This document shows, piece by piece, positions 1 to 50,721 of a DNA stretch of 64,000 nucleotides. How positions within the stretch are numbered: position 1 is the stretch's first letter; each line of letters opens with the position of its first letter. Source of the stretch: Parvularcula sp. BBD 1991-13 (GTDB taxonomy: Bacteria; Pseudomonadota; Alphaproteobacteria; Caulobacterales; Parvularculaceae). The DNA is taken from contig LYSZ01000003.1 in NCBI GenBank assembly GCA_001657385.1, forward strand, positions 485,341 through 549,340, given 5' to 3'. A program made the position numbers and the translations under genes. The notes beneath the pieces are model-generated. The model made no database searches and was not told where the DNA came from. It was given only the letters and a program-made list of their open reading frames with translations.

Positions 1-1282
1 CGCCCTTCCCGAATGGCGCCGGCGCACGGCGCAGGACCGCGCCGCGCACATGCTCCGGCTGCATGACGCGCTCATGGACCATCGGGACGCGCTGGCGGCC
101 ATCCTGACCGAAGAGATGGGCAAGCCGCTCGCCGAAGCCAGGGGCGAGATCGCCCACGGGGCGGGTTTTTTCAAATGGTTCGCCGAGGAAGGCCGGCGCA
201 TTTACGGCGACATCATCCCATCGCCCTGGGCGGATACGCGGATCGTGGTCTCCAAGCACCCGGTCGGCGTGGTCGGCGCGATCACGCCGTGGAACTTTCC
301 GAACTCGATGATCGCGCGCAAGCTTGCCGCCGCCCTCGGCGCGGGCTGTACGATGGTGATCAAACCGGCCTCGCAAACGCCCTATTCGGCCCTCGCCTTC
401 GGCGACATGGCCATGGAGGCGGACCTGCCCGCCGGGGTCGTCAATATCGTCACCGGCGCCGCGTCGGAGATCGCCGCGGAGATGTGCGAGAACCCGGCCT
501 TGCGCAAGATCACCTTCACCGGCTCCACGGCGACGGGCAAGAAACTCGCCGCGCAGGCGGGCGCGCATATGAAGCGCGTCTCCATGGAGCTTGGCGGCAA
601 CGCGCCGTTTATCGTCTTCGACGACGCCGATCTCGACAAGGCGGTCGAAGGGGCCATGATCTCGAAATTCCGCAATAGCGGCCAGACATGCGTGTGCGCG
701 AACCGGTTCCTGGTGCAGTCATCCGTATACGATGCGTTCAGCGAAAAATTCGCCGCCGCCATCGCCGAGCTGAAAGTGGGCGACGGCGCCGAGGACGGCG
801 TGACGCAGGGACCGCTGATCGACGAGGACGCCGTCGCCAAGGTCGAGGAACATGTCGCCGACGCGGCGCGCAAGGGCGGCGAGGTCATCGCGGGGGGCGC
901 CCGGCACGCGCTTGGCGGCGCCTTTTTCCAGCCGACGCTGATCGGCGGCGCTTCAAGCGACATGCAGATCTTCCGTGACGAAACCTTCGGCCCCGTCGCC
1001 GCCATGTTCCGGTTCGAGACCGAGGACGAAGCGATCCGGATGGCGAACGATACCGAATACGGCCTCGCCTGTTACGCCTATACGAACGATCTCGGCCGCG
1101 CCTGGCGCCTCAACGACGCGCTGGAATACGGCATGGTCGGGATCAACCAGGGCCTGATTTCCACCGAGGTCGCCCCGTTCGGCGGCGTGAAGGCGTCAGG
1201 GATCGGCAAGGAGGGCTCCAAATACGGCGTCGAGGATTACCTCGACGTCAGATACGCGTTGTTCGGGGGACTCGGCCGGTAG
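1..1282 (+). CDS. NAD(P)-dependent aldehyde dehydrogenase, succinate-semialdehyde type (5' truncated by window edge)
   Basis: This is an aldehyde dehydrogenase of the GabD/SSADH group, oxidising an aldehyde to an acid with NAD(P). The reading frame is open from base 2, and the residues before the first ATG (base 50) are typical SSADH N-terminal sequence, so the true start lies outside the window. Visible motifs are the NAD-binding TFTGSTATGK, the general-base segment MELGGNAP and the nucleophile segment NSGQTCVCANR. It is followed by a sugar kinase, aldolase, isomerase and glycosidase on the same strand. In that setting I infer that its substrate is the three-carbon aldehyde released by the aldolase, which is sulfolactaldehyde if the locus degrades sulfoquinovose. 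The family assignment is firm. The substrate is inference, and succinate semialdehyde itself cannot be excluded. Confidence 0.9.
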   Translation, partial: ALPEWRRRTAQDRAAHMLRLHDALMDHRDALAAILTEEMGKPLAEARGEIAHGAGFFKWFAEEGRRIYGDIIPSPWADTRIVVSKHPVGVVGAITPWNFPNSMIARKLAAALGAGCTMVIKPASQTPYSALAFGDMAMEADLPAGVVNIVTGAASEIAAEMCENPALRKITFTGSTATGKKLAAQAGAHMKRVSMELGGNAPFIVFDDADLDKAVEGAMISKFRNSGQTCVCANRFLVQSSVYDAFSEKFAAAIAELKVGDGAEDGVTQGPLIDEDAVAKVEEHVADAARKGGEVIAGGARHALGGAFFQPTLIGGASSDMQIFRDETFGPVAAMFRFETEDEAIRMANDTEYGLACYAYTNDLGRAWRLNDALEYGMVGINQGLISTEVAPFGGVKASGIGKEGSKYGVEDYLDVRYALFGGLGR

Positions 1283-1358
1283 CGCGACCATTGCCGTTCG
1301 GAAAGGACGGGCGCGCGCCCCGCATCCCCGCGCCCTGAAGGTTTCGCCGGAAGCGAGG

Positions 1359-2291
1359 ATGACCGAAATGGCGATGAATGAAATCCTGTGCGTCGGACAT
1401 GCGGTCGAGGATCATCTGTTTCGCGTCGCCGCCATGCCTGCGGCCGCCGCGAAGCATCAGGCCCGCGACGTGGAGATTGTCGGCGGCGGACCGGCGGCCA
1501 GCGCCGCGGTCGCCGTCTCGCGCCTCGGCGGCGCGGCGCGCCTGGCAGCGCGGGTCGGCGACGACGCCGTCGGCGCCTCGATCATCGCGGATCTGGAAGC
1601 CGAGGGCGTCGACTGCGCCTTGGTGCGGCGTTTTTCTGGCTGCAAATCTTCCCGGTCGGTCGTTCTGGTCGACGACAAGGGCGAACGGCTGATCGTCAAC
1701 TATCTTGATGCGGCCATGCCGGACGACCCGGCGTGGCTGGCGGCGGCAATCCCGGAAAGCCTGGGGGCGGTTCTCGCCGACATCCGCTGGCCGGCCGGCG
1801 CGCTGTGCGCCCTCGCCGCCGCGCGGCGGCTGGGCGCGCCCGGCGTTCTGGATGCGGATTATCCGGTTCCCGCGGACGGCGCGCTGGTGCGCGCGGCAAG
1901 CCATGTCGCCTTCTCGGCCCAGGGCCTGCGCGCCTATGCCGGCGATGACGACCTCGCCCGCGCCGTCACGCGCGTCGCCGAGGACGCCGGCGTCTGGTGC
2001 TGCGTCACCGACGGCGAGAACGGCGTCCTCGCGGCGGGCGTGGGCGCGCGCGCGGGGGCGTGCGAACACGCGCCCGCCGCGCGCGTCAACGTGGTCGACA
2101 CCCTCGGCGCGGGCGACGTCTGGCACGGGGCTTTTACCTTCGCCCTGGCGCGGGGCGACGGCGAAGGCCGCGCGGTGCGTTTCGCCAACGCCGCCGCCGC
2201 CGTCAAGGTTTCGCGCCCCGGCGGACGCAAGGGCGCGCCGCGCCTTGACGATGTGGAAACCTTCCTGGAACGGAGCGACGCTGCGGCATGA
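1359..2291 (+). CDS. PfkB-family sugar kinase resembling sulfofructose kinase YihV/SqiK
   Basis: A ribokinase/PfkB-fold kinase of 310 aa. It carries the N-terminal substrate-site VGGGPAAS (residues 41-48) and the ATP/catalytic motif DTLGAGD, with catalytic Asp253. The similarity to E. coli YihV (6-deoxy-6-sulfofructose kinase) as I remember it is unusually close: GGGPAA, KSSxS, KGERLIVNY and LADIRW are shared. The three YihV residues reported to hold the sulfonate (Lys27, Asn109, Arg138) align with Lys32, Asn114 and Arg143 here. Its stop overlaps the aldolase start by 4 bp (ATGA), so the two are probably translationally coupled. A start at 1374 is also possible. I infer phosphorylation of sulfofructose at C1. 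A generic ketohexose kinase is the alternative. Confidence 0.88.
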   Translation: MTEMAMNEILCVGHAVEDHLFRVAAMPAAAAKHQARDVEIVGGGPAASAAVAVSRLGGAARLAARVGDDAVGASIIADLEAEGVDCALVRRFSGCKSSRSVVLVDDKGERLIVNYLDAAMPDDPAWLAAAIPESLGAVLADIRWPAGALCALAAARRLGAPGVLDADYPVPADGALVRAASHVAFSAQGLRAYAGDDDLARAVTRVAEDAGVWCCVTDGENGVLAAGVGARAGACEHAPAARVNVVDTLGAGDVWHGAFTFALARGDGEGRAVRFANAAAAVKVSRPGGRKGAPRLDDVETFLERSDAAA

Positions 2292-3349
2292 CCGGCGCGG
2301 AAAGAAGCATGAGCGCGGGAAAGCTGTGGGGCATGCGCCGCATGGCGGACGCAAACGGCCTGTTCAAGATGACCGCGGTCGACCAGCGCCCGCCCATCAA
2401 GGGGCCCATCCGGGAAAAGCGCGGGACCCGCGAGGCGCCGTGGGAGGACGTCGCTGATTTCAAGAAAATGCTGATCGAGACGTTGCAGGCGGAATCCTCC
2501 GCCATGCTGCTGGACCCGCACTACGCCTATCCGCGCGGGATATCGGTCTTTGACCCGGCCAAGGGGCTTATCCTCACTCTTGAGGATTCCGCGTTCGAGG
2601 AAACGCCGCAGGGGCGCCTTTCCAGCGAAATCGACGATTGGTCGGTCGAGAAGATCAAGCGGGTCGGCGGCGACGCCGTGAAAGTGCTGGCCTGGTATCG
2701 TCCGGATGCGCCGGAACCGGTCCGCATGCGGCAGAAGGACTTTGTCGCCCGCATCGGGGCGGCGTGCGCAAGATACGACATTCCGTACGTCTTCGAGCTG
2801 CTGGTTTATCCGCTGGCGTCGGATTCGGAGCAAACGGGCGACTATGTCGAAATGAAAACGAAAAAGCCGGCGCTGGTGCTGGAAAGCGTCGAAACCTTCG
2901 CCGCGCCGGACTACGGCGTCGATCTCTTCAAGCTTGAAAGCCCTCTGCCCGCCGCAGCGGTTCCCGGCCTCGGCGCAGAGGGCTGGGAAGACGCGCAAGC
3001 CTGGTTCGACCGGCTGGGCGAAGCCGCGGGCCGCCCCTGGGTGATGCTGTCGGCGGGCGCGGGCAAGGCGGCGTTCCGCAATATCCTGACCCACGCCTTC
3101 AGGGCGGGCGCCTCCGGTTATCTCGCGGGCCGGGCCATCTGGCAGGAAGCGTTCGCCCATTTTCCCGACTGGGACGCCATCCGCCGCGACCTGAGATCGG
3201 AGGCGGCCGATTACATGCGCGCGCTGAACGCACTGACGGACGAATGCGCAACGCCATGGACGGCGCACCCGGCGATCCGCCGCGCCGGCGCGAACATCGC
3301 CCCGGCGGACGCAACGTTTCGTCGGCATTACGCCGGTTTTGGAGGGTGA
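2288..3349 (+). CDS. Class I aldolase, LacD/YihT family (putative sulfofructose-1-phosphate aldolase)
   Basis: A 353-aa TIM-barrel aldolase of the tagatose-bisphosphate/sulfofructose-phosphate aldolase group. Family signatures are the early AVDQR, the SSAMLLDPHYAYP strand, VKVLAWYR, and the Schiff-base segment DLFKLESPL with Lys215 as the predicted imine lysine. The late ASGYLAGRAIW segment matches YihT's ASGFLAGRAVW. In YihT the products are dihydroxyacetone phosphate and 3-sulfolactaldehyde. A second in-frame start at 2309 has a better ribosome-binding site (GGAAAGAAG) and would shorten the protein by 7 residues. The C terminus is about 50 residues longer than YihT. The coupling to a YihV-like kinase supports a sulfosugar substrate, but tagatose or another ketose bisphosphate is possible. 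Confidence 0.87.
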   Translation: MTGAERSMSAGKLWGMRRMADANGLFKMTAVDQRPPIKGPIREKRGTREAPWEDVADFKKMLIETLQAESSAMLLDPHYAYPRGISVFDPAKGLILTLEDSAFEETPQGRLSSEIDDWSVEKIKRVGGDAVKVLAWYRPDAPEPVRMRQKDFVARIGAACARYDIPYVFELLVYPLASDSEQTGDYVEMKTKKPALVLESVETFAAPDYGVDLFKLESPLPAAAVPGLGAEGWEDAQAWFDRLGEAAGRPWVMLSAGAGKAAFRNILTHAFRAGASGYLAGRAIWQEAFAHFPDWDAIRRDLRSEAADYMRALNALTDECATPWTAHPAIRRAGANIAPADATFRRHYAGFGG

Positions 3350-3351
3350 AG

Positions 3352-4746
3352 ATGATGCGCTATGGCGTCGCCGCGCTGGGTCGTCCGACCTTTGACGTTC
3401 CGTTCGCCGAGCAAAAGCTCGCCGACGCCTTCGACGCGCTGGAAAAAGCGGGCGTCGAGGCGGTCGGCCCGCGTGCGCTGCTCTATGACGCCGCCGCCGC
3501 GCGAGAGGCGCTCGGCGAAATCGAAAAGGCCGGCCGCATAGACGCCATGCTCATCCTTCAGGTCACGTTCACCGACGCGACGATGACGGTGGACATTGCG
3601 CGGCGGGCGACGGCTCCAGTGTCGATCTGGGCGCTTCCGGAGCCGCGCCTTGGCGGTCGGCTGCGGCTCAACGGGTTTTGCGGCCTCAACCTCGCCGCCC
3701 ACGCCCTCGGCAAGGCCGGCCTCGCCCACGGATCGCTTTACGCAGATCCCGGCGCGCCGGGCATCGCGGAAGACCTGCGCGCCCTCGCCCGTCCCCGCGC
3801 CGTCGAGCCGAGCAAGGCCGCCAGGGCGGCGCCGGCGCGGCATGACGACGCCGAGCGCGCCCTCGCCGCGCTCAGGGGCGCGCGCATCAGCGTCATTGGA
3901 ACGCATCCGGATGGTTTCGACACCTGCGCTTATGACGAAGGCGAGCTTGCCGCCCTGTCCGGCGTCGCCGTCAGCACGCACGGCCTCGACGCCTTGTTCG
4001 ACCGGGCGAGATCGGTGGACGAGGCCCGCGTCGCGACGGCGCGGCGGCGCAGCGCGGAACGCCTGGCCGGCCTTGACGACGTCGACCAGCAAGAGCTCGA
4101 CCGGTCGTTTCGGTTGTTCTGCGCCCTTGAGGACATTCAGGAGGAAACGGGCGCGCAGGGGCTCGCCGTGCGATGCTGGCCGGAAACCTTTACCGAGTAT
4201 GGCTGCGCCGCCTGCGGGCCCATGGCGATGATGAACCAGAAATGCGTGCCCAGCGCCTGCGAAGCGGATGTCTACGGATCGTTTTCGGCGCTGCTGCTGC
4301 AACACCTGGCGCGGGAGCCGGCCTGGATGGCCGATCTCGTCGATCTCGATTTTTCGGACGACACCGGGGTTTTCTGGCACTGCGGGCTGGCGCCCCTGTC
4401 CATGTGCGACCCGGAGGCGACGCCGGAAGCGACGATCCACACCAACCGCAGGATGCCCCTGCTGCACCAGTTTCCATTAAAGCCCGGGCGGTTCACTTTT
4501 GCGCGCCTGTCGCAGTCGCGCAACGAAACCAAGCTTGTCGTCGGCGCGGCGCGCTTCGTCCGGTCGCCGATGGCATTTACCGGCACGTCGGGCGTGGTAA
4601 AGTTCGACGCGGGAGCCGGGACGCTTTTCAACGCCATCGTCGCGGAAGGGCTGGAGCACCACTACGCAATCGCCTATGGCGACCACCGTCCCGCCCTGCG
4701 GGCCGTCGCCGCCGCTTTCGACATACCGCTGCTCGAGCTTTCCTGA
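3352..4746 (+). CDS. L-fucose/L-arabinose isomerase-fold sugar isomerase (putative sulfoquinovose isomerase, SqvD-like)
   Basis: A 464-aa protein of the FucI/AraA fold. The C-terminal half holds the family's metal-site segments: CEADVYG (with Glu304), DDTGVFWHCG and the ACGPMAM stretch. A good ribosome-binding site (GGAGGGTGAAG) lies just before the ATG at 3352, and a second ATG follows immediately. The preceding aldolase ends 2 bp upstream, and the stop overlaps the next ATG (TGATG), so this is a tight operon. FucI-like isomerases that are neither fucose nor arabinose isomerases are known in sulfoglycolysis (SqvD, sulfoquinovose to sulfofructose). I infer that role from the YihV-like kinase and the YihT-like aldolase beside it. 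The exact sugar is not proven by the sequence. Confidence 0.85.
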   Translation: MMRYGVAALGRPTFDVPFAEQKLADAFDALEKAGVEAVGPRALLYDAAAAREALGEIEKAGRIDAMLILQVTFTDATMTVDIARRATAPVSIWALPEPRLGGRLRLNGFCGLNLAAHALGKAGLAHGSLYADPGAPGIAEDLRALARPRAVEPSKAARAAPARHDDAERALAALRGARISVIGTHPDGFDTCAYDEGELAALSGVAVSTHGLDALFDRARSVDEARVATARRRSAERLAGLDDVDQQELDRSFRLFCALEDIQEETGAQGLAVRCWPETFTEYGCAACGPMAMMNQKCVPSACEADVYGSFSALLLQHLAREPAWMADLVDLDFSDDTGVFWHCGLAPLSMCDPEATPEATIHTNRRMPLLHQFPLKPGRFTFARLSQSRNETKLVVGAARFVRSPMAFTGTSGVVKFDAGAGTLFNAIVAEGLEHHYAIAYGDHRPALRAVAAAFDIPLLELS

Positions 4747-6857
4747 TGCTGTTTCGCGACTCAGCCGCCTTGTCCCGCCTGTGGGGAACGGTCTCGCCTC
4801 CGCGGATGCTGGGCGATCCGGTGCGCTTCGGCGTCGGGAAGGTTTCCATACCGACAAGCGCCGGCGATTTTACGGTCAGCCTTCACCATTTCGGTGCAAG
4901 AATGCGCCTTGGCGGGCCGCGCGCCGTCGATTACGGCCTTGTCCAGTCGCCGCCCGCGGAAGACGTCGTTTCCGTCGCCGACGCCGATGACCGCCTCGTC
5001 ATCGAAAGCGCGGCCCACAAGATCGTTCTCGACAAGGCGTCGCTTTCGTTTTCGTTCTTTCACCGCGGCCGGGAAATCCTGCGTTCGGCGACGGACGGGC
5101 ATTTCGTTCGCGCCCAGCGCCTGCCGCCTTTCGCCCGGGACCCGCAGGGCTGGTATGTCCACCTCAATCTGTCCTCGGATGAAAACATCTATGGGCTCGG
5201 GGAAAAATGGGGCAAGCTGAACAAGCGGGGCCAGCTTATCTCGTCATACAACCACGACGCCCTCGGCGTGAATGCGGAAGCCTCCTACAAGAACGCACCG
5301 TTCTGCTGGAGCACGAATGGCTGGGGCGCATTTGTCCACACCCCGGCGCCGGTCACCCACGGCGTCGGTTTCTCGCCATGGTCGCAGCGGTCCTACGGCG
5401 TTTTTGTCGAGGACCATTGCCTCGATCTGTTTGTGTTTTCCGGCGACGACGGCGCGACGATTATTCGCCACTATACAGAACTGACGGGCCGCGCGCCGAC
5501 GCCGCCGGACTGGTCGCTGGGCGTCATCATCTCCAAGGCTTTTTACCGCGACGCGGACGAGGTTCTCGAAACGGCGCGGGAAATCCGGCGCCGCGGCATG
5601 CCTTGCGACACCATCACGCTTGACGGGCGCGCCTGGCAGGACACGCAAACCCGCTTTTCCTTCGACTGGGACGCGACGCGATACCCCGATCCGAAGCGCG
5701 TCCTGGCGGCGCTGAAATCGATGGATTTCAAGATCTGCCTTTGGGAGTATCCGCTGATTTCCGTCAACAATCCGCTGTTCGATACTTTTTCGGAAAAAGG
5801 CTGGCTGCTTCGCGACGCGCGCACCGGCGGGACCTATGAATATGAATGGGACACCGAACCTTTCGGCGACGTGCTGACCCCGCTGCCCAATTCGGGCATT
5901 GTCGATTTTACCCATCCGGACGCCTACGCCTATTGGCGCGACCGGCATGCGGACCTGTTCTCCATCGGCGTCGACATGATCAAGGCGGATTTCGGCGAGC
6001 AGGTTACGGACGATACGCTCTCCCATAACGGCGAGACCGGCCGCCGTCTCCATAACGTTTACGCATTCCTTTATAACCGGTGCGTGTACGAAGCAGCGCG
6101 GAAATACGCGAAGAACGGCGCCTTTCTGTTCAGCCGGGCGTCCTGGACCGGATGCCAGCGCTTCCCGTCCCAGTGGGGCGGCGATCCGCAGGCGGACTGG
6201 GAAGGTCTGGCGGCAAGCCTGCGCGGCGGGCTCTCCTGGGGCATGACCGGCGCGCCGTTTTACGCAACAGATGTGGGCGGCTTTTACGGCGACCAGCGAG
6301 ATCCGAAACTCTATGTGCGCTGGCTCCAGGCCGCGGTGTTTTCCGCGCATATACGCCTTCACGGCATCGGCGACCGCGAACCGTGGTCATACGGACCGAC
6401 GGCGGAAGCGGCCGCGACGGAGGCGTTGCTGCTGCGTTATCAGCTCCTGCCCTATCTCAAGAAAGTTCTTCGCCAGTCCCATGAAACCGGCCTGCCGGCG
6501 CAGCGCGCCATGGCGCTCGCCTGTCCGGACGAACCGGAAGCCTGGTCGTTCGACGAACAGTTCTTCCTCGGCGACGACCTTCTGGTTGCGCCATGCGTGC
6601 GCAGCGACGACACCGTCCGGGTTTACCTGCCGGAAGGACGCTGGCGGCGCTTTCCGACCGGCGAGCCGGTCGAGGGCGGGCGCGTCCGCCGGCTGACGCT
6701 GGCCCTGAACGAGATGGCGCTGTTCGTGCGGGAAGGAAGCGAACTGCCGATGGGGCCGGCCCGGCGTTTCGTCGAGCATGACGCCGACCTCGACGCAACC
6801 GCGCATGTCTGGCGGGCGGACGATGTCAGGCTCGTTCACTTCGGCGAGGGACCGTAA
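4746..6857 (+). CDS. GH31 family alpha-glycosidase (YicI-like sequence; possible sulfoquinovosidase)
   Basis: A 703-aa glycoside hydrolase family 31 enzyme with no signal peptide, hence probably cytoplasmic. The nucleophile lies in KADFGEQ (Asp415) and the acid/base in WGGDPQADW (Asp480). An HIRLHG segment and the C-terminal beta domain are also present. The frame is open further upstream inside the isomerase gene, but the ATG at 4746 overlaps the isomerase stop and is the sensible start. The overall sequence resembles E. coli YicI (alpha-xylosidase) more than YihQ (sulfoquinovosidase). At the YihQ sulfonate-recognition pair Arg301/Trp304, this protein appears to have Arg303 and Phe306. It may release sulfoquinovose from its glycerol glycoside, or cleave another alpha-glycoside. 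The family is certain and the substrate is open. Confidence 0.88.
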   Translation: MLFRDSAALSRLWGTVSPPRMLGDPVRFGVGKVSIPTSAGDFTVSLHHFGARMRLGGPRAVDYGLVQSPPAEDVVSVADADDRLVIESAAHKIVLDKASLSFSFFHRGREILRSATDGHFVRAQRLPPFARDPQGWYVHLNLSSDENIYGLGEKWGKLNKRGQLISSYNHDALGVNAEASYKNAPFCWSTNGWGAFVHTPAPVTHGVGFSPWSQRSYGVFVEDHCLDLFVFSGDDGATIIRHYTELTGRAPTPPDWSLGVIISKAFYRDADEVLETAREIRRRGMPCDTITLDGRAWQDTQTRFSFDWDATRYPDPKRVLAALKSMDFKICLWEYPLISVNNPLFDTFSEKGWLLRDARTGGTYEYEWDTEPFGDVLTPLPNSGIVDFTHPDAYAYWRDRHADLFSIGVDMIKADFGEQVTDDTLSHNGETGRRLHNVYAFLYNRCVYEAARKYAKNGAFLFSRASWTGCQRFPSQWGGDPQADWEGLAASLRGGLSWGMTGAPFYATDVGGFYGDQRDPKLYVRWLQAAVFSAHIRLHGIGDREPWSYGPTAEAAATEALLLRYQLLPYLKKVLRQSHETGLPAQRAMALACPDEPEAWSFDEQFFLGDDLLVAPCVRSDDTVRVYLPEGRWRRFPTGEPVEGGRVRRLTLALNEMALFVREGSELPMGPARRFVEHDADLDATAHVWRADDVRLVHFGEGP

Positions 6858-6979
6858 ATCCGTTTACCCCCCGACATGGCGCGATAAACGCCGGCGCCCC
6901 GCAGCGGCGAGGCCGGTAATGCCGCGCGGGCGGATTCTGGAGCCAGGCGCCTTCAACGCGACTTACAATTGTCTCCGGT

Positions 6980-7006
6980 CACAATTGGCTCTGGCTTCTT
7001 AAGCGG
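6980..7006. repeat. Short intergenic element also found at 22696-22723
   Basis: Within the 200-bp gap between the convergent GH31 and glycerol kinase genes is a CACAAxTGGCTxxGG-xTTCTT-AAGCGG element. A close variant occurs in the gap after the phosphotransferase gene at 22696-22723. The rest of this gap shows no convincing gene or terminator. The function is unknown and chance similarity is possible. Confidence 0.3.
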
Positions 7007-7057
7007 CGCGTGCCCGCGAACCGCAACACCGGCAGTCCGCTTTTGCTGCAACGGGCT

Positions 7058-8545
7058 CTAAAACGACATGGCCGCGTCGATGGCCCGCTTCCAGCCGGCG
7101 AGCAGCGATCGGCGCTCCGCATCCGGCATGGCGGCGTCGAACCGGCGATCACGCCGCCATGAGGCCGCGATTTCATCCGGCGTTCCGTAGACGCCCGATT
7201 TCATTCCCGCCAGATAGGCCGCCCCCAGCGCCGTGGTTTCCATCACCTGCGGACGGTCGACCGGCAGGTTGAGAAGCCCCGCGAGAAACTCGCACATCCA
7301 GGTGTTCGCGACCATGCCGCCATCGACCCGCAGGGACGAAGGCGTCGCCCCGTCCTGAACCATGGCGTCGAAAAGATCGTGCGTCTGGTAACAAACCGCC
7401 TCCACCATGGCGCGGGCAAGCTCCGCCGGGCCGCTCGCCCGGGTCAGCCCGAAAATCGCGCCCCGCACATCCGCCCGCCAGTAGGGCGCGCCGAGGCCGG
7501 TGAAGGCGGGCACGACGTACACCCCGTTGTTGGAGGCGAGCCCGCGCGCGAGCCCTTCGGTTTCGGAAGCGGTCCTGATCACGCCGAGCCCGTCGCGCAG
7601 CCATTGCACGCCAGCCCCGGCGACGAAGATCGACCCTTCCAGCGCGTAGGTCGCCTTGCCGTCGAACTGATACGCGATGGTCGACAATAGCCGATTCCCC
7701 GACCGAAGAAGCGTCTCACCGGTATTCAACAGGACGAAACAGCCCGTACCGTAAGTGCTCTTGATGTCGCCCGGATGAAAACACGCCTGCCCCACGGTCG
7801 CCGCCTGCTGATCGCCGGCGACGCCGAGCAGCGCGATGGACTTGCCGAAAAGGGCCGGCGCCGTCGTTCCGTACTCGCCGTTACTGTCGCGAACCTCCGG
7901 CAGCATCGCCTCGGGAATCCGGAACAGGCGCAGCATTTCCTCGTCCCAGCGGTGCTCGGCGATGTTGTAAAGACTGGTGCGGCTGGCGTTGGTGGCGTCC
8001 GTGGCGTGCACCTTACCGCCGGTGAGGCGCCACAACAGGAAGGCGTCCACGGTGCCGAAGGCGAGCTTGCCGCACTCCGCCCTCGCCCGGGCGCCCTCCA
8101 CATGGTCGAGAATCCAGGCGATTTTCGTCGCCGAGAAGTAAGGGTCGAGCAAAAGCCCCGTACGCTGAGCGACATCGGCTTCCGCGCCCTCCCCGCGCAG
8201 GGCGTCGCACTGGGCGGCGGTGCGCCGGTCCTGCCAGACGATCGCGTTGTGCAGCGGCGCGCCGGTCTCGCGGTCCCAGACAAGGGTCGTCTCGCGCTGG
8301 TTGGTCAATCCGGCCGCGGCGACGGCCGCGCCTTTCGCCTCCGCCTCGGCGATGGCGCTGCGGCAGACATTAAGGGTCGACGTCCAGATCGCTTCCGGAT
8401 CATGCTCGACCCAGCCATTCGCCGGATAGCGCTGCGGGAACTCTTCCTGCGCCATGCTGACGATGCGCGCGTCGGCGTCGAACACAATGGCGCGGCTTGA
8501 CGTCGTACCCTGATCGATGGCGAGAATGGCGCTGCGGCCGGGCAT
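7058..8545 (-). CDS. glpK: Glycerol kinase
   Basis: A 495-aa FGGY-family kinase of the usual GlpK length. The N-terminal phosphate-binding [15 protein letters not shown] is the GlpK signature. Substrate-site and interdomain segments ([41 protein letters not shown]) are all in place. It phosphorylates glycerol with ATP, feeding glycerol-3-phosphate into glycolysis. It lies 97 bp downstream of a solute/Na+ symporter on the same strand and faces the GH31 operon. No glpF or glpD is adjacent, so this is not a standard glp operon. I infer that it takes the glycerol freed when the GH31 enzyme cleaves a glyceryl glycoside, such as sulfoquinovosyl glycerol. Confidence 0.95.
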
Positions 8546-8590
8546 AGGCGGACCTTTCCGTTGTCTCGTCCGTTGTCTCGGCCCGAACAG

Positions 8591-8640
8591 GCCGCCCGGC
8601 GCGCCGGCGCAAGGGGCGCCGTGCGGCCGGCCGGGCGGGC
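8591..8640 (-). terminator. GC-rich hairpin between symporter and glycerol kinase
   Basis: GCCGCCCGGC (8591-8600) can pair with the nearly complementary GCCGGGCGGG around 8629-8638, giving a long GC stem in the symporter-glpK gap. No T-tract follows, so it is more likely a message-stabilising or attenuating hairpin than a strong terminator. Confidence 0.3.
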
Positions 8641-8642
8641 CC

Positions 8643-10352
8643 TCAGGCGGGTTGCACCCTGCGGCGCTTCAGGGCCAGGGCCCACACGCCGATATTCGCC
8701 GCCGCCAGGAGCCCGGTGAGAAACCGGAACGCCATGCTGAACGTGTTTTCGACGACGCCGAGCGGAGAAAATAGCAGATAGAGCGCGACAACCAAGGACA
8801 AAAGCGTGAACGCGGTCGGACGCGCCAGCGCCCAGGGCGACAGGTCGACGACGTTCTTGCGCTCGTACCGCCAGGGCTCCCTGCGCGGCGCAAGCCGCCC
8901 GGCGACGAGCATGATCGCGATCTCGATGACGAAAAGGATGGCGTAGAGATGCAGGAAATGGATCGGCGCGACGTCGTACAGGACAAAGCGGAAAAGCCCG
9001 TAGGTCGCGACATGGAAAACGATGGCGATCTTGGCGCCGACCGCCGGAGTGCGGCGGGTGAACAGGCCGACGACGACGATGGCGACGATCGGTATGTTGT
9101 AAAAGCCGGTGAAGACGCGGATCACCTGCCACAGCCCTTCCGGCGCGAAATACAAAAGCGGGGCGATCGCGAACGAGAACAGCGCGATGACGACGCTGGC
9201 GATCTTCGCCGCCCGGACCAGTTCCGCGTCGCTGAGCGCGCCGCCGCGCCAAGGCGCGTAAACGTCAAGGCAGAACAGCGTCGCCGCGCTGTTCAGCAGG
9301 GAGTTGAACGAACTGAACACCGCACCGAGCAGCACCGCCAGGAAAAACCCCGTCATGTAAAACGGCAGCACGTCGCGGATGAGGCGCGGATACGCCTCGT
9401 CGATGGTCGCAAGGCCCGGCCCGTACAGGTGATAGGCGATGACGCCGGGGATCATCATCAGGAACGGGACCAGCACCTTGAAGAAACCGGACAAGAGAAC
9501 GCCCTTCTGCCCCTCGACAAGCGAGCGCGCGCCGAGCGTTCTCTGGATGACGTACTGATTGGCGCACCAGTAAAAGAGGTTGGCGAAAACCATGCCGGTG
9601 AACAGCGTCGCGAAGGGCGTCGGGTCCGACCGCCCGCCGATGGCGTTCAGCTTGTGCGTCTCGGTCGTCGCGACCGTCGCAATCCCGCGGGCGAGACTGC
9701 CCTCCCCCAGCGCGACAAGGCCCAGCGCCGGCACAATAACGCCGATGGCGAGAAGGCCGATCCCGTTCAGCGTGTCCGACACGGCGACGGCGCGCAGGCC
9801 GCCGAAAATGGCGTATACGGAGCCGATCACGCCGATGACGGCGACCGTTGCGACAAGGCCGGGGAAATAGCCCACATTCAACATGCCGGGCACGTTGAAC
9901 AGTTGCATCACCGCGACCGAACCGGAATAGAGGACGGAGGGAATGGTGACGAGCCCGTAACCCAGCATGAACAGGATCACCGTGTAGCGGCGCACATCCT
10001 CGTCGAACCGGGATTTCAGGAACTCCGGCAGGGTGGTGAACGCCCCGGCGAGGTAGCGCGGCAGGAAGACCAGCGCCATCAGCACCGTGGAGACGGCGGC
10101 CGTCACCTCCCACCCCATGCTGCTCATGTTGTATCCGTAGGCGGAGCCGTTAAGGCCGATCAGTTGCTCCGCCGACAGGTTGGTGAGGAGAAGCGAGCCG
10201 GCGATAAAGACGCCGCCAAGGCCCCGGCCCGCGAGGAAGTAGCCGTCTTTCGTGTCCGCCTCGCCGCGGGTCTTGAGGTAGGAAATCCACGCCACAAGCG
10301 CCATGAACGCAGCGCAGGATCCGAGGGTGAGAAGAAGATGCTGGTCCGTCAA
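8643..10352 (-). CDS. Sodium/solute symporter, SSS (SLC5, SGLT-like) family
   Basis: A 569-aa, very hydrophobic inner-membrane protein with about 13-14 predicted transmembrane segments and the SSS-family segment [20 protein letters not shown] near residue 60. The internal [18 protein letters not shown] segment is typical of SGLT-like sugar transporters (vSGLT, YidK). It probably imports a sugar or glycoside with Na+. It sits between a TonB receptor remnant and glpK on the minus strand. Together with the facing glycosidase operon this suggests uptake of the intact glycoside. The upstream 200 bp hold a 16-bp tandem repeat and a C10 run. Confidence 0.92.
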
Positions 10353-10386
10353 GGCGACGCTCTTGGTTGATGGCGGCGGTCATGCT

Positions 10387-10418
10387 CGATGGCGGTCTGG
10401 ATCGATGGCGGTCTGGAT
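10387..10418. repeat. Two-copy 16-bp tandem repeat in the symporter 5' region
   Basis: The unit CGATGGCGGTCTGGAT occurs twice in a row without mismatch (10387-10402 and 10403-10418), 35 bp upstream of the symporter start on its non-coding side. It could be a regulator half-site array or slipped-strand duplication. A run of ten C residues follows near 10484. Confidence 0.6.
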
Positions 10419-10553
10419 CGAAGAGCCGATCGCGGCGGCAATGCGGGCGATGCGTAACAAAACCGCCGGCCGCGGGCCAGCGCCCCCCCCCCCTCGAACA
10501 GCCCCTCGCGCGCAAACGCTCGCGCGGAGACCCTTTTTCGAAACGCACCGGCG

Positions 10554-10859
10554 CTAGAACTCGGCGCGGAAATTGACGCCCACATAACGGTCCGCCTCGC
10601 GCGGGATCTGATAGCGGAACGTATCGCCGGAATTGGTCGTCACGAAGCTTTCGTCGAGCAGGTTCTTGACGATGAAGGTCAGGCGGTAGGCCTCGTCGAC
10701 CTCGACGCCCGCGCTCAGGTCCCAGAGATTGTAGGACGGCAGAAGGCTCTGCGCCGGGATCGGAAAGGGGTTGATGTCGCCCTCGGCGAAGCCGCCGCCG
10801 AGCGCCGCGGCGGCGTCCGCATCGAGCACGGCGTCATTGACGCTCGGCAGCAGCGATTC
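10554..10859 (-). pseudogene. TonB-dependent receptor, C-terminal stump only
   Basis: About 100 codons of the end of a TonB-dependent outer-membrane receptor. It shows the typical final beta strands (YNLWDLSAGVEV, LTFIVKNLLDES, RYVGVNFRAEF) and the required terminal Phe. Reading upstream, recognisable receptor sequence (SLLPSVNDAVLDAD) runs to about 10855. It is then replaced, in the opposite direction, by coiled-coil coding sequence of a phage spanin. The plug and most of the barrel are missing, so this is a dead remnant cut by the foreign island. Its position directly upstream of the symporter suggests that it once supplied outer-membrane uptake for this sugar locus. Confidence 0.8.
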
Positions 10860-11169
10860 CTGCGCCGAGCAGGCGGCAGCCGTCGAAGCCGCGCGAGAAA
10901 GCGAGAGAGCCGCCGCAGCGAGTCGAATCGCCGAGGCGAGACAGAGCCGACTGGCGGCGGAATCTGCCGCCAGGGCGGCTGAGAACAGCCGCGACGAGGC
11001 GCTTCAGGCAAGGAGACAGTCACATGCAGATTTTCGGAAATGCGAGGCGATGGTGTGGCCCGATGATGTTCGCGCTTTCCCTCGCCGCGTGCGCGAACCC
11101 AACGAAACCGGCGGCGCCAGTGATCGCGCCGGTGGAGGTTCCGGCCATGGTGACGCCGGGGCTGCTTGA
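10855..11169 (+). pseudogene. Phage Rz-like inner-membrane spanin, 3' part
   Basis: An open frame encodes an Ala/Glu/Arg-rich coiled coil starting at CAEQAAAVEAARES and ending in FRKCEAMVWPDDVRAFPRRVREP, the usual layout of the C-terminal half of a phage Rz protein. The N-terminal membrane anchor is absent, because the frame runs back into the TonB receptor stump. The o-spanin gene begins inside its 3' end in another frame, which is the classic Rz/Rz1 arrangement. I infer a decayed prophage lysis cassette. Confidence 0.6.
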
Positions 11170-11287
11170 GCCGCGCCGTCCAGTTCCCGATAACGGGAGC
11201 GTTGGCGGTTACATTCGATCTCTGGAAGGAGCGCTTATCCGGTGCAATATGGACAAGAATGAAGTCGCTAAAGAGCTAGGGGGTTAG
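11024..11287 (+). CDS. Rz1-like outer-membrane lipoprotein (o-spanin)
   Basis: An 87-aa lipoprotein. It has a basic N terminus, a hydrophobic segment, a lipobox LSLAAC that gives a lipidated Cys, then a Pro-rich stretch and a C-terminal motif of the form GGYIRSLEGALIRCNMDK. The motif recurs in phage spanins and DUF2570-adjacent lysis proteins. It overlaps the Rz-like frame by 146 bp in a different phase. This is the outer-membrane half of a holin-endolysin-spanin system. No holin or endolysin is visible nearby, so the system is a remnant. Confidence 0.65.
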   Translation: MQIFGNARRWCGPMMFALSLAACANPTKPAAPVIAPVEVPAMVTPGLLEPRRPVPDNGSVGGYIRSLEGALIRCNMDKNEVAKELGG

Positions 11288-11318
11288 CGGCGTACTGGGT
11301 GATCGTCGATCAGAAAGA

Positions 11319-11723
11319 CTATCCCTTGCTTTTATCGCTTTCGTCATCGCTCGGGTAGGATCGGAGTATGTCGGCGGCGTCGTCTTCATACTGGGCAAAC
11401 GCCTCAACGACGCGCTTCAGCAGGCCGAGACGGTCAGAGGGTATGGTTTCGACGATGGTGACGATTTCATCAATCGTCAAATCTTCCGGCGTCGTTTCAT
11501 CAGGCAGAGGATGCCTTGGCAAAAGAAAGGCCGGTCCGATCTTATAGACTGTTGCATATGTGAAGAGCTTTGGAATGCTGATCCCATTCCGAGCGTTTTC
11601 CTCGTTTGAAATGATCTGCGTGCTGGAGCCTGTGATTTTTGCAACCTGCCCCTGTGTCAGCCCGGCGGCGTCGCGTGCTTTCTTCAGGCGCGGGCCAACG
11701 AACTTCATGTAGTCCGATGTCAT
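11319..11723 (-). CDS. XRE-family helix-turn-helix regulator (copy 1)
   Basis: A 134-aa protein with an N-terminal Cro/CI-type HTH at about residues 10-65 (LKKARDAAGLTQGQVAKITG, then SSTQIISNEE). It also has a C-terminal DLTIDEIVTIVETIPSDRLGLL segment that is not part of the DNA-binding fold. It is a near duplicate of the next gene upstream, and the duplication includes the intergenic DNA. It probably represses the phage remnant or acts as a controller for the nearby restriction enzyme. No target can be named from the sequence. Confidence 0.85.
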   Translation of the reverse strand: MTSDYMKFVGPRLKKARDAAGLTQGQVAKITGSSTQIISNEENARNGISIPKLFTYATVYKIGPAFLLPRHPLPDETTPEDLTIDEIVTIVETIPSDRLGLLKRVVEAFAQYEDDAADILRSYPSDDESDKSKG

Positions 11724-12357
11724 AGATCTGATCTCGTTTCGGCGGAAAGGGCGCAGAATCGTCTTCCAGTTACTTTGATAGCATGAGCGGGGGTTTTGAC
11801 CAAAAGGCGCTATCCCATTTTTTGAACCGCCGGGATTTTTGGCCGGTCAACTTGTGTCGCTTTCGTCATCGCTGGGGTAGGCGCGGGTTTTGTCGGCGTC
11901 GTCGTCTTCATACTGGGCAAACGCTTCAACGACGCGCTTCAGGAGGCCGAGACGGTCAGAGGGTATGGTTTCGATGATGGTGACGATTTCATCAATCGTC
12001 AAATCTTCCGCTGTCGGATCGTCAGATTGAGGGCGCCTTGGCAATAGATGGGCCGGTCCGACCTCGTATATGCGTGCATATGTAAACAGCTTTGGAATGC
12101 TGACCCCATTCCGAGCGTGTTCCTCGTTAGAAATGATCTGTGTGCTTGAGCCGGTCATTTTCGCAACTTGACCTTGCGTCAGCCCGGCAGCGTCTCGCGC
12201 TTTCTTCAGGCGCGGGCCAACGAACTTCATGTAGTCCGATGTCATAGATCTGATCTCAGTTAGGCGGAAAGGGCGCAGAATCGTCTGCAAGTTTCTTTGA
12301 ATAGCATGAGGGGTGGTTTTGACCACAGACGCTATCCCCTTTTCTTGGCCGCCAGGG
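11333..12357. repeat. Tandem direct duplication of about 500 bp carrying the two XRE genes
   Basis: The block at about 11333-11835 recurs with point differences at about 11858-12357. It includes the XRE gene and roughly 110 bp of upstream sequence (for example GGCGGAAAGGGCGCAGAATC at 11737 and again at 12261). The divergence shows the duplication is not recent. The upstream parts presumably carry duplicated promoters or operators. Confidence 0.8.
11847..12245 (-). CDS. XRE-family helix-turn-helix regulator (copy 2)
   Basis: A 132-aa paralogue of the gene at 11319-11723 with the same HTH (KKARDAAGLTQGQVAKMTGS) and the same C-terminal LTIDEIVTIIETIPSDR block. Substitutions are scattered, mainly between the two domains and at the C terminus. 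The frame is open upstream to 12413, but the conserved MTSDYMKFVG start shared with copy 1 places the start at 12245. Its 5' flank repeats that of copy 1. Whether both copies are expressed is unknown. Confidence 0.83.
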   Translation of the reverse strand: MTSDYMKFVGPRLKKARDAAGLTQGQVAKMTGSSTQIISNEEHARNGVSIPKLFTYARIYEVGPAHLLPRRPQSDDPTAEDLTIDEIVTIIETIPSDRLGLLKRVVEAFAQYEDDDADKTRAYPSDDESDTS

Positions 12358-12479
12358 GGCGCCGCTGAACATCTTTTTGGCGGCGCAAAACAATATTCAA
12401 AAAAATATTTCACTCATATATTGAGTTCTAAAATGTAATTTGATACAGAACTACATCTCATAAGTTTAACTCTGGGTGC

Positions 12480-12836
12480 GTGGGGATCGGCTTGGATATC
12501 AGTGGCGAAGACGCTCAGGAAAAAGCCATTGAGGAGGCGATTACATGGCTTCTTGGTGAGCATGGCGGCAAAGTCTCGCTGTCCGGCTTCGATGTTTGCC
12601 GTGGCTTTTTGTCCCTTTCCAAAAATCTAAACGTCGCGCCGACCGAGTTGGCGGCGACGCTGGATATGGCGATGAGGCAAGTTCCGATGCTTGTCTTCAC
12701 ATATGACCTGAATGTCAGTCGGCCGGAAAACGTGTTCGAAACAGCAAAGGCTGTAAGGGCCTTTCAGAATAAAGCGGGTACGGAAAAAATCATCCGTATG
12801 CTTTTGAAAAAAGATGCCGAAGATACTTTTGAGTAG
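12480..12836 (+). CDS. Hypothetical protein in lower-GC island
   Basis: A 118-aa acidic, mostly helical open frame starting with GTG. I recognise no domain. The 230 bp upstream are AT-rich (ATATTCAAAAAAATATTT near 12390), compatible with a promoter region divergent from the XRE genes. It precedes another unknown gene on the same strand. The codon use is less GC-biased than the flanking chromosome, which points to transfer. The start codon is uncertain. Confidence 0.5.
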   Translation: MGIGLDISGEDAQEKAIEEAITWLLGEHGGKVSLSGFDVCRGFLSLSKNLNVAPTELAATLDMAMRQVPMLVFTYDLNVSRPENVFETAKAVRAFQNKAGTEKIIRMLLKKDAEDTFE

Positions 12837-12932
12837 AATTTGACTCGGGGGCGGTGGCGTCGGGGCGCGGGAATGTCAGGGGAAATCTATTCCCGCGCCC
12901 CATCGCGGTCATCAACAAAGAGGAAAAGAGTA

Positions 12933-13721
12933 ATGTCGGAGGGGGCTGTGTTTAAGGCTGGCATTTTAGGTTATCGCGCATTTAACACAGGCGAAATCGT
13001 CAGTCTTCCGGTTGGCGGCGACGGGGCATCTGTTACTTACAGGTTGGCCGCTGAGGGCCGTTACTCGTTACTGCGTCCATCCGGCCGGCGAGACCATTGG
13101 CACAGTTGGGTTGCTATGCAGGACCATGATGCAGCGGCGCCCAAAACGGTTTGCCTTGCATTTTTGCCTGCTCTTGGATTGTGCGTCGCCCGTCATGTCG
13201 GCCAAGACGCCATGCCGTCTTACGCGGCGCCGTTCGATGCCTTAATTGGGCGTATCACCGCGTTGACGACCCATGACGGAGAATTGGCGGCTCTGTCTGA
13301 CAGCCCGAACGCCATCAGTGTGACCGAAGCAAAGGCATGGATCGATAATGGAGAAGACCAAAAGGGCGTAGCCGGCGTGTACCCGCATTCGACGGTCTAC
13401 ATCCATGAGACTTTCATCGAGGTGCCCGAAGAGATTCAAGCCACCTACCCGAAGGATCTGTTCTTCCGCGCCCAGCCGCTCAATGCGAGGCCGGAACAGT
13501 TGCGGCGTTCGGATCTCACTCGACCCATTTACGCCAACGATAACGGCAACCGCCTTTATAGCTTTTACATTCCATTGGGCTCAGCCTCGTCATGCGCCTG
13601 TGGGCATGTCTGGATTGGGCCTGCCTGCACTTTACGTGACGACGAGGGCTATTTTTCAAACTGCCCAGGTTGCAAGGCCGGCGCGCAGCAATCCCTCACC
13701 CATCTCCCCACGTCGCGTTAG
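12933..13721 (+). CDS. Hypothetical protein with C-terminal Cys-rich (zinc-ribbon-like) segment
   Basis: A 262-aa protein. The ATG at 12933 is preceded by an AG-rich ribosome-binding site (AGAGGAAAAGAG), which favours it over upstream starts at 12840 and 12873. The C terminus has CACGHVWIGPAC and CPGCKAG, together a plausible zinc-binding ribbon. The middle contains a conserved-looking VYIHETFIEVPEEI segment. I do not recognise the family. It lies between duplicated XRE regulators and a restriction enzyme, so a phage or defence role is possible but unproven. Confidence 0.55.
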   Translation: MSEGAVFKAGILGYRAFNTGEIVSLPVGGDGASVTYRLAAEGRYSLLRPSGRRDHWHSWVAMQDHDAAAPKTVCLAFLPALGLCVARHVGQDAMPSYAAPFDALIGRITALTTHDGELAALSDSPNAISVTEAKAWIDNGEDQKGVAGVYPHSTVYIHETFIEVPEEIQATYPKDLFFRAQPLNARPEQLRRSDLTRPIYANDNGNRLYSFYIPLGSASSCACGHVWIGPACTLRDDEGYFSNCPGCKAGAQQSLTHLPTSR

Positions 13722-13794
13722 GTGAGGCATTTGATAGCAAAATCAGGAAAATTCTAGGTTTCGTCGATAGCTGACAAAAGCGATGTTCCGGCTA

Positions 13795-13810
13795 GGTGGT
13801 GTCTCAGTTT
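13795..13810 (+). repeat. Left inverted repeat of the putative insertion
   Basis: GGTGGTGTCTCAGTTT, complementary at 14 of 16 bases to the copy at 17475-17490. Confidence 0.55.
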
Positions 13811-14004
13811 AAATACTTACATCATCCTGAAGGGCTTCTGGCGGAGTTTGGCCCTTATAATTTGTTCGCCATGCCTAGTGCGAGCGACTTACGACGCCCC
13901 AAGGCGGTCTCTGACGCCGATGACAGCTTCATCCTCGAAGGGGACTTTACAGGGCGAAATTCAAGCTGGCGATCTGGGAGAAAGCGGACATTACACGCGC
14001 TGGA

Positions 14005-17000: not shown

Positions 17001-17250
17001 CGACATGCAGGTCTTTCGCCTCGCAATGGCCGATAACGATATCGCCCCGCCGAAACACAAAGTCTGGGGCGCCGACTTTCTCGCGCTTGGGTTCGTTTTG
17101 CGCCGTGACTTTCGTGTGAATATTGTCGAACAGCTTTTTCAGCGCCGGACGGTAAGAGTGCTCAGTGGCGTCCCCGGCTTGGTGTACGGCAATGACTTCG
17201 GTAAGAAAATCGCTCAACATTGAAGGGCCGTTTTCAACAAAAACCGACAC
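14005..17250 (-). CDS. Single-chain restriction-modification enzyme (type IIG/IIL or 'type ISP'-like, without helicase)
   Basis: A 1081-aa fused nuclease-methyltransferase. The N terminus has a PD-(D/E)xK-type pattern: Asp63 in GAPDFVF, and Glu77 and Lys79 in CEAKD. A helical linker follows, then an N6-adenine methyltransferase with SAM motif DPATGTGTF (from Asp396) and catalytic NPPY (517-520). The last roughly 450 residues would be the target-recognition region. There is no SF2 helicase, unlike full type ISP enzymes. It would methylate and cut at its own recognition sequence. The start is GTG at 17250, with an alternative ATG at 17220. Its lower GC and the flanking inverted repeats suggest horizontal arrival. 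Confidence 0.88.
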   Translation of the reverse strand: MSVFVENGPSMLSDFLTEVIAVHQAGDATEHSYRPALKKLFDNIHTKVTAQNEPKREKVGAPDFVFRRGDIVIGHCEAKDLHVDLKKMKGTNAAQKKRYVDGLSNLIYTNCLEWIFYREGEIVSEIKIADFDGGIQPIPRKFNALEQMLRDFTLEKPQTIKSPRRLAERMAGKAILIKDVLANTLEDEDAEKTDLYAQYQAFKDNLIDDISIGEFADLYAETIAYGMFAARLHDPTPQDFSRQEALELLPKTNPFLRSLFSYIAGPDLDERISWVIDDLAEIFQACNVADLMSKYGSTTQRNDPFLHFYETFLAAYNPKKRKARGVWYTPEPVVNFIVRAVDDVLKKEFGLSEGLADTSKVTVDWDLGAAGPAIKGGKKTKSNFEKRDVHRVQILDPATGTGTFLAEAIKQIAPRVKAAGSGAWSFYVEKDLIPRLHGFELLMASYAMCHMKLDMVLTELGYKPSANPPRLSVYLTNSLEEGQPDQRDLLMARWLSNEARGANEVKRDQPIMCVIGNPPYSGISQNMGEWIVSLIEDYKYVDGEHFGERKHWLHDDYVKFIRFSEHMIEKNGEGVLGFVTNHGYLDNPTFRGMRWHLLTTFDKIYVMDLHGNAKKKEVSPDGSPDKNVFDIQQGVAIIVAVKKKSSKKKKSGSPLAEVYHSEIWGERQEKYESLRNASLLKSDWNRLDLRGPRYPFAERNWELRENYENGFSIDELMTANVSGIVTMGDGFIVQEKRRSIGENIRLLLGTEITEAELKTKFSLGKNYAKWLIENRSSIRFDESKIVPFCYRPFDTRWTYFDNKLIWRWRVDVMRQFLRTPQLAFAIPKITRDGLGGLAVKNMAGHKIYSAYDTNNIFPLYLYPDENAHKDEQRRVNFDQKLYAKLRKLAGKRPLSPASEAEKAHGENYGGAGLTGAAPGKEANEFDVFDYIYGVLHCPAYRETYAEFLKIDFPRIPWPKSPEVFWSVREKGEALRRLHLMEDAAIGETPYPFETEPGEDGDNTVDQPTFEKGRVYINRTQYFDTVPEISWGFYIGGYQPAQKWLKDRKGRELSFEDIRHYQKIIKILSETDRIMNTIEMPL

Positions 17251-50631: not shown

Positions 50632-50721
50632 TTCTGACCCTCCCATGTTACGGCGTCGTATCGCAACGCGGCCAGTCATCGCATTTGTTATCGATTCGCG
50701 ACGTTATGGCCGACAATACGA

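Follow-up and report, generated by a model that had tools for sequence, protein, structure and literature searches.

Can a single bacterium convert the glycosides of sulfoquinovose (SQ), the sulfonated sugar found in the membranes of plants and algae, completely to sulfate? Complete breakdown of SQ is usually thought to be split between two bacteria. The question is raised by a locus at the start of a 64,000-nucleotide stretch of Parvularcula sp. BBD 1991-13 (the window; C4:485341-549340 of the 4.24 Mb genome, G000), in which an original prediction had placed an operon that splits a glyceryl sulfoglycoside and ends in sulfolactate. The locus is larger than was then described: just outside the window the operon adjoins a divergent set of genes predicted to desulfonate sulfolactate, and the two arms very likely form a single regulon for the complete breakdown of SQ glycosides in one cell. 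The proposal is built on gene content, synteny, operator positions and residue conservation, from which we infer every enzymatic and regulatory function. The upstream flank of the window was covered by a stretch of the same genome termed L002 (C4:466000-485900), and the relatives compared were two congeneric genomes (G040 and G031) and one genome of the same family (G003).

Predicted upper pathway enzymes

All seven genes named in the original prediction were open reading frames of the families assigned to them, as judged by Pfam and NCBIfam profile scans. Five of these lie on the plus strand:

to 1282, plus strand: aldehyde dehydrogenase (ALDH), predicted sulfolactaldehyde dehydrogenase of the GabD/SlaB type (PF00171; succinate-semialdehyde dehydrogenase (SSADH)/GabD models and structures including 8c54)
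1374-2291, plus strand: PfkB-family kinase, predicted 6-deoxy-6-sulfofructose kinase of the YihV type (PF00294; PDB 7ag6)
2309-3349, plus strand: DeoC/LacD-family class I aldolase, predicted sulfofructose-1-phosphate aldolase (PF01791, PRK12858)
about 3352-4746, plus strand: FucI-fold isomerase, predicted SQ isomerase of the SqvD/SftI-like subfamily (PF02952, Fucose_iso_C)
4746-6857, plus strand: glycoside hydrolase family 31 (GH31) glycosidase with a YicI-like scaffold, predicted to act as a sulfoquinovosidase (Pfam GH31 domains)

The start of the ALDH gene lies 167 bases before the window (L002:19175, equal to G000:C4:485174), its full product having 482 amino acids, and the genes from kinase to GH31 are successive frames within about 20 bases of each other. 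The order ALDH, kinase, aldolase, isomerase, GH31 is kept in both congeneric genomes at 56-78% protein identity and is therefore not due to chance. Comparison was extended to the best 80 of 160 related loci confirmed in a scan of named genomes, many of which are cut by contig ends; presence was counted by tblastn, with kinase matches in 72 loci and aldolase matches in 62.

When the kinase and the isomerase were searched against known enzymes, both scored best with those acting on sulfosugars. The best of 50 PDB sequences for the kinase was the E. coli sulfofructose kinase (7ag6, E 5e-61), followed by an Agrobacterium kinase (8.5e-46) and by ribokinases at 3.5e-24 or weaker. Residues K27, N109 and R138 of YihV, which we take to bind the sulfonate, are all present in the window kinase. 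In an alignment of 71 kinases, from the window and from 70 of the 72 matched loci, K27 was kept in 69/69 sequences with that column, N109 in 64/70 and R138 in 70/70. The sole NCBIfam match of the isomerase was the SQ isomerase SftI (NF048012), and neither sequence nor profile searches found a PDB relative for it. YihS had tblastn matches in 0/80 loci; the locus isomerase belongs to PF02952 instead. Together with the GH188 enzymes described below, these results leave the SQ reading of the locus well supported by sequence comparison, in agreement with the isomerase-kinase-aldolase type first proposed.

The aldolase fits its assignment in part. It belongs to the Pfam family of YihT, and K193, S226 and R253 of YihT, presumably functional residues that include the Schiff-base lysine, are identical in all 62 aldolases aligned, those of the window and of 61 of the 62 matched loci. 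LacD and 8tnf score far above YihT, the PDB ranking being 8tnf (6.6e-94), LacD (5e-41 and weaker) and YihT (about 2e-18). The closest PDB entries to the ALDH are SSADHs, with 8c54 ranking third. In the Rhizobium sulfolactaldehyde dehydrogenase two arginines are proposed as sulfonate binders, and the same positions bind carboxylate in human SSADH (PMC10599462); a match at these arginines would therefore not discriminate and was not counted as evidence.

The top profile scores of the aldolase are tagatose-bisphosphate aldolase models, which would suit a different substrate: sulfofucose (6-deoxy-6-sulfo-D-galactose) or another sulfohexose, with isomerisation to sulfotagatose and cleavage of sulfotagatose-1-phosphate by the LacD-like enzyme. 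A PF00294/PF01791 pair is also reported from the sulfofucose-induced SuyAB cluster of Paracoccus wurundjeri, but that account found no significant induction of the pair and no activity of a sulfofucose isomerase (PMC12421959). The kinase is nearest to a sulfofructose kinase, and GH188, a family characterised on SQ glycosides, occurs in 42/80 loci. LacD-type aldolases are loose about C4, which also counts against this substrate. The scan of the locus proteins also gave no match to any Pfam family of the sulfofucolytic Entner-Doudoroff (ED) route, whose enzymes SfcH/D/F/E are a dehydrogenase, a lactonase, a dehydratase (PF13378/PF02746) and an aldolase (PF03328). We consider a sulfofucose locus quite unlikely.

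The locus had also been labelled sulfo-EMP2 (EMP, Embden-Meyerhof-Parnas), a pathway defined by the kinase SqiK (PF00365) and the class II aldolase SqiA (PF01116) (PMC9594981). That name is ruled out by Pfam, which places the locus kinase in PF00294 and the aldolase in PF01791. As its sequences are classified, the locus is a hybrid of an SqvD-like isomerase, a YihV-type kinase, a LacD/YihT-type class I aldolase and a GabD/SlaB-type dehydrogenase.

A GH31 glycosidase in the slot of GH188

By sequence and by the fold of a structure model, the nearest PDB entries to the GH31 protein are YicI/BT_0339. Its D415 (nucleophile) and D480 (acid/base) align with D405 and D472 of YihQ, and Q288 of YihQ is kept as Q298. 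Among the 80 loci, GH188 (counted at at least 45% identity) was found in 42, GH31 in 21, both in 0 and neither in 17. No more than about 110 bases separate the end of the isomerase gene from the start of the glycosidase gene in 42/42 loci with GH188 and in 19/21 with GH31; the GH31 count includes one divergent protein (L042, 38-41%) without the R295/R303 stretch. When GH31 and GH188 labels were placed on a quick isomerase tree, three changes were required.

The best PDB matches of the GH188 proteins, at E 1e-125 to 3e-119 with the next at 4e-20, are 8zn9, 8qc3 and 8qc2, which we take to be SqgA enzymes (the database listing names oxidoreductases). The sulfonate motif EHRxxxLxK is kept in 41/42 of them, and sulfonate binding by R/L/K residues is described for SqgA (PMC10755693). 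Many relatives carry GH188, the family of the NAD+-dependent sulfoquinovosidases SqgA, at the position where the window has GH31. Because GH31 and GH188 hold the same slot after the isomerase and never occur together, the GH31 protein is predicted to be a sulfoquinovosidase of a second, YicI-like lineage that lacks the sulfonate residues of YihQ. R295 and R303 are candidate sulfonate-binding residues.

The resemblance of GH31 to the alpha-xylosidase YicI, together with the Fucose_iso_C match of the isomerase, could also point to an operon for a non-sulfonated sugar, of xyloside, fucose or tagatose type, lying beside a sulfolactate cluster by chance. This is very improbable given that kinase and isomerase both score best with sulfosugar enzymes, that GH188 takes the slot of GH31 in relatives, and that the operator is shared with the Suy genes (below).

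The isomerase was found in 4/62 genomes of the window's family and in 3/299 of a sample of the order (its own genome in both), and this patchy distribution means that the locus has probably spread horizontally. Exilibacterium tricleocarpae R142 (L029) is one named strain in which the locus is intact. Several related loci differ in content. In eight Woeseiaceae-type loci (L031-L034, L036, L037, L040 and L092) kinase and isomerase are adjacent and no LacD-type aldolase was matched by tblastn, so that these loci must depend on an aldolase of a different type or on one encoded at another place; Gfo/Idh proteins in seven loci of this type were excluded as GH188 at 27-34% identity, although 5/7 keep the motif. 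Boseongicola/Silicimonas loci (L047, L050, L055, L058 and L069) have kinase, isomerase, ALDH and SlcC with no aldolase or glycosidase match. A MauG-like di-heme protein of about 590 amino acids is present in 21/80 loci (L044, L048, L051 and 18 others), usually upstream of the kinase. Plasmid pZZM402 of Zymomonas mobilis ZM4 (L099, 128-9451) carries a likely sulfosugar cluster, not so named in its record, with a class II aldolase, an aldose epimerase, an SqvD-like isomerase (35% identical to that of the window), a GH188-like Gfo/Idh protein (47%), major facilitator superfamily transporters and a TonB receptor. The flanks of the G031 locus hold a sulfotransferase-domain gene (L009:4697-5338) and a GH116 glycosidase gene (L010:7854-10223).

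A predicted desulfonation arm, divergent from the operon

Upstream of the ALDH gene, outside the window, a second set of genes is transcribed divergently from the plus-strand operon, in the order SuyA, SuyB, ComC, YeiH, SlcC and GlpD when read away from the window:

L002:16749-17486, plus strand: GntR/UTRA regulator, between SuyA and ALDH
L002:16095-16385, minus strand: SuyA-like protein (45% identity; sole NCBIfam match galactarate dehydratase, 39 bits, cut-off 731)
L002:14912-16084, minus strand: SuyB-like protein (sole NCBIfam match galactarate dehydratase, 144 of 731 bits)
L002:13797-14894, minus strand: ComC-like dehydrogenase (best model L-sulfolactate dehydrogenase NF040650, 176 of 500 bits)
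L002:12766-13800, minus strand: YeiH-family exporter (profile match below cut-off)
L002:11785-12711, minus strand: SlcC-like 2-hydroxyacid dehydrogenase (best model phosphoglycerate dehydrogenase, 263 of 454 bits)
L002:9805-11616, minus strand: glycerol-3-phosphate dehydrogenase GlpD (over cut-off)

ComC and SlcC, which both adjoin SuyAB, are assigned at the level of the family. A Cupriavidus pinatubonensis protein encoded beside genes annotated hpsN/hpsO shares 67.5% identity with SuyB, and SuyAB has been identified in this species (PMC12890257). A PLSDB search matched SuyB in 316 plasmid records; 13 of them, including that of C. pinatubonensis, are at 60-80% identity and the next listed is at 38%. 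Since homologues of SuyA, SuyB, ComC and SlcC adjoin the operon divergently, sulfolactate is probably desulfonated within the same cell, and probably is not the end product that the original prediction had made it.

Among the 80 loci, SlcC was matched in 46, ComC in 20 and SuyB in 24. The sulfopyruvate decarboxylase subunits ComD/ComE were matched in 10/80, and SuyB and ComD/ComE together in 0/80. Where the locus spans at least 19 kb, SuyB or ComD/ComE is present in 29/48 cases, and SuyB in 12/14 of those with GH31.

The sulfite released could be oxidised by the product of the one PF00174 gene in the genome, which is closest to SorA (231 of 600 bits) and has a SorB-like partner (22 of 93 bits), both below cut-off. 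A homologous SorA/SorB pair lies directly 3' of the GH31 gene in G031, its catalytic subunit 68% identical to that of our strain, and the G003 genome has a sorA homologue beside GlpD, where its Suy operon ends. The DmsC family (PF04976), taken as a mark of SoeABC-type sulfite dehydrogenase, gave no match. Between gntR and ALDH, two adjacent minus-strand genes of GC 0.51-0.52 (L002:17606-18837) are absent from the two congeneric loci and have no Pfam, NCBIfam or PADLOC match.

A palindrome in front of both arms

An inverted-repeat search between the divergent arms yielded the palindrome TCTTATRTAAGA. An exact copy, TCTTATGTAAGA, lies at C4:485138-485149, outside the window, with its first base 36 bases before the ALDH ATG. 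Copies with one mismatch begin 64 bases before gntR, at a site that also precedes suyA, and 30 bases before sorA on a different contig. L002 holds four strand matches where 0.01 were expected.

The exact palindrome occurs in 40 copies in 27/80 loci (1.38 Mb searched) and co-occurs with the GntR gene, being present in 26/30 loci with this gene and in 1/50 without it. Five Markov shuffles gave no copies, nor did the reversed motif, and no more than one copy was found for any of 29 further palindromes built from these letters. Of the 40 exact sites, 35 have a matched locus gene at most 420 bases downstream and five have none. The genes downstream are gntR (21), suyA (17, largely the same divergent sites), the kinase (8), and ALDH, a TonB receptor and a tripartite ATP-independent periplasmic (TRAP) transporter binding protein (2 each). 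Sites in G040 precede the receptor, the gene group holding the sodium:solute symporter (SSS), suyA/gntR and ALDH. An impression that palindromes also precede mutarotase genes was not borne out by a check of strand and distance. By its co-occurrence with the sites, the GntR protein is the predicted regulator of the palindrome, and one GntR regulon is predicted to span the route from SQ glycoside to sulfate. A literature search pairing a GntR operator with sulfolactate or sulfoglycolysis gave nothing but a glycolysis review among the matches listed.

In the Parvularcula genome there are six distinct sites, three of them before regulon genes; those at C17:143871, C32:348682 and C32:460827 have no obvious link. 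By eye, the one-mismatch copies at C32:348682 and C32:460827 lie 37 and 24 bases before genes for a lipoprotein-like protein and a small membrane protein, and are probably due to chance.

The shared operator bears on whether the locus instead follows the classic two-tier scheme, in which sulfolactate is excreted and the Suy genes serve sulfolactate from outside. Excretion of C2 and C3 sulfonates is described as usual for sulfoglycolytic bacteria (PMC12421959, PMC12890257), and the two arms are separate transcription units. Such a division is nevertheless unlikely here. The same palindrome stands before both arms, Parvularculaceae and many gammaproteobacterial metagenome-assembled genomes retain the divergent linkage of the arms with suyA/gntR, and SuyB is present in most of the longer loci that have GH31, as counted above. 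No importer is present among the six annotated genes of the Suy arm, genes further out not having been examined for this.

Uptake and glycerol genes

The single-regulon reading also takes in a convergent group on the minus strand:

7058-8545, minus strand: glycerol kinase GlpK, predicted to serve the glycerol of sulfoquinovosylglycerol (TIGR01311 over cut-off)
8643-10352, minus strand: sodium:solute symporter of the SSS family, a candidate for the uptake of SQ or of its glyceryl glycoside (PF00474; PRK10484 over cut-off)
10554-10772, minus strand: C-terminal remnant of the locus TonB-dependent receptor, next to a low-GC island

The glycerol genes fit a glyceryl glycoside of SQ, the substrate first suggested. 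glpK is found at 53-59% identity in 5/80 loci, with three more weak matches at 24-26%. The SSS gene has a 77% identical copy in the same locus of G040 and was found in 2/80 loci. The TonB receptor that had been counted with the locus is full-length in relatives, but in this genome a C-terminal remnant is what is left: 73 aligned amino acids (10557-10772), 63% identical to residues 728-800 of the 801-residue receptor beside the SSS gene of G040. Another TonB receptor, at 48118-50679, was rejected as a member, being about 38 kb away and 23-33% identical to locus-type receptors, with no link found. Directly beside the remnant lies a low-GC island (10554-17450; GC about 0.43-0.60, compared with 0.64-0.73 in the DNA around it), which carries a type IIG-like restriction-methyltransferase, an XRE-type regulator gene and, judged by eye, another XRE-like frame.

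Proposed pathway

In the pathway that we propose, the SSS symporter would import sulfoquinovosylglycerol and GH31 would split it into SQ and glycerol, the latter passing to GlpK and GlpD. The SqvD-like isomerase would convert SQ to sulfofructose, the YihV-like kinase would form sulfofructose-1-phosphate, and the LacD/YihT-like aldolase would cleave this to dihydroxyacetone phosphate and sulfolactaldehyde, which the GabD/SlaB-like dehydrogenase would oxidise to (S)-sulfolactate. SlcC and ComC would then invert (S)- to (R)-sulfolactate through sulfopyruvate, and SuyAB would release pyruvate and sulfite, the sulfite either leaving the cell through the YeiH-type protein or being converted to sulfate by SorAB. 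Acting on the palindrome, the GntR/UTRA regulator would control the two divergent arms jointly with sorA.

Several results weigh against this proposal. The isomerase, at 245 bits, is far under the cut-off of 700 for the SqvD model, which also matches below cut-off in 2/14 control genomes, and the mutarotase family PF01263 has no match in the Parvularcula genome. Residues R301, W304 and Y508 of YihQ, presumably its sulfonate site, are not kept in GH31, where Q301, F304 and F513 align with them. Neither SuyB nor ComDE was found in 19/48 loci of at least 19 kb, and the PF00174 (sorA) gene of G040 is on a separate contig on which no operator was found. Across the genome, sites with at most one mismatch gave 11 strand hits compared with 12 for the reversed control; as this is no higher than the control, only the positions of the sites are claimed. 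Finally, the best palindrome match in the region upstream of SSS (10341-10700) has four mismatches. Because the receptor is a remnant and no good palindrome precedes SSS, uptake and use of SQ may be impaired in this strain; alternatively, SQ use may rely on porins and another promoter.

Relation to known systems

Sulfo-EMP, sulfo-EMP2 and hybrids of the two are already known (PMC12890257, PMC9594981, PMC13372026). The locus shares its predicted intermediates and a YihV-like kinase with sulfo-EMP, as in the E. coli yih genes and the Arthrobacter variant ending in sulfolactate, and like the latter it would end oxidatively in an aldehyde dehydrogenase (PMC12890257). The aldolase is in the family of YihT and keeps its key residues, but LacD and 8tnf are its far closer matches. 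Unlike sulfo-EMP, the locus has a FucI-fold isomerase rather than YihS and a GH31 that is not of the YihQ type, and it is predicted to encode the desulfonation of its sulfolactate as well. The isomerase, SqvD-like by its Pfam family and by a model match below cut-off, is a probable likeness to sulfo-EMP2 of Bacillus urumqiensis and to a Yersiniaceae hybrid, and mixing of EMP and EMP2 enzymes has been described for Yersiniaceae and Vibrio mediterranei clusters (PMC9594981, PMC13372026). In place of SqiK and SqiA, the defining enzymes of sulfo-EMP2, the locus has its PF00294 kinase and class I aldolase. GH188 genes in sulfo-EMP clusters have been reported, in a paper whose examples of GH188 also include a Jannaschia cluster (PMC10755693), and the GH188-type loci found here include a Jannaschia (L095).

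Tandem breakdown of a sulfosugar with SuyAB in one bacterium is known for sulfofucose, where it is termed unusual: P. wurundjeri, also an alphaproteobacterium, combines sulfosugar cleavage with SlcC/ComC/SuyAB (PMC12421959). It differs in using an ED route on sulfofucose, with no sulfolactaldehyde dehydrogenase or glycosidase identified in that account, whereas the present locus is of EMP type, has candidates for both enzymes and has a shared operator. Complete SQ biomineralisation, from SQ to sulfite in one genome, has been predicted for Ensifer sp. HO-A22 through sulfo-ED and 2,3-dihydroxypropane-1-sulfonate gene clusters (PMC10599462); the counterpart here is a single divergent locus of sulfo-EMP type. 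Literature searches on Suy with SQ, and on SQ or organosulfonates with Parvularcula or Marinicaulis, gave no title on this type of locus among the matches listed. Three features look new: an EMP-type locus joined under one operator to SuyAB, the breadth of its occurrence, and a GH31 that is not of the YihQ type.

Taken together, the data tip somewhat towards a broader view, in which a one-operator regulon of Parvularculaceae and several gammaproteobacterial lineages would degrade SQ glycosides to sulfate within one cell, with a second, independently evolved GH31 sulfoquinovosidase on a YicI scaffold (candidate residues R295/R303) swapping with GH188 in its slot. If this is true, part of the sulfonate flux would never leave the cell, and estimates of C3-sulfonate exchange would be too high wherever such bacteria are abundant. 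The predicted GH31 sulfoquinovosidase clade could escape surveys based on YihQ, and the palindrome would be usable as a genomic marker of the regulon.

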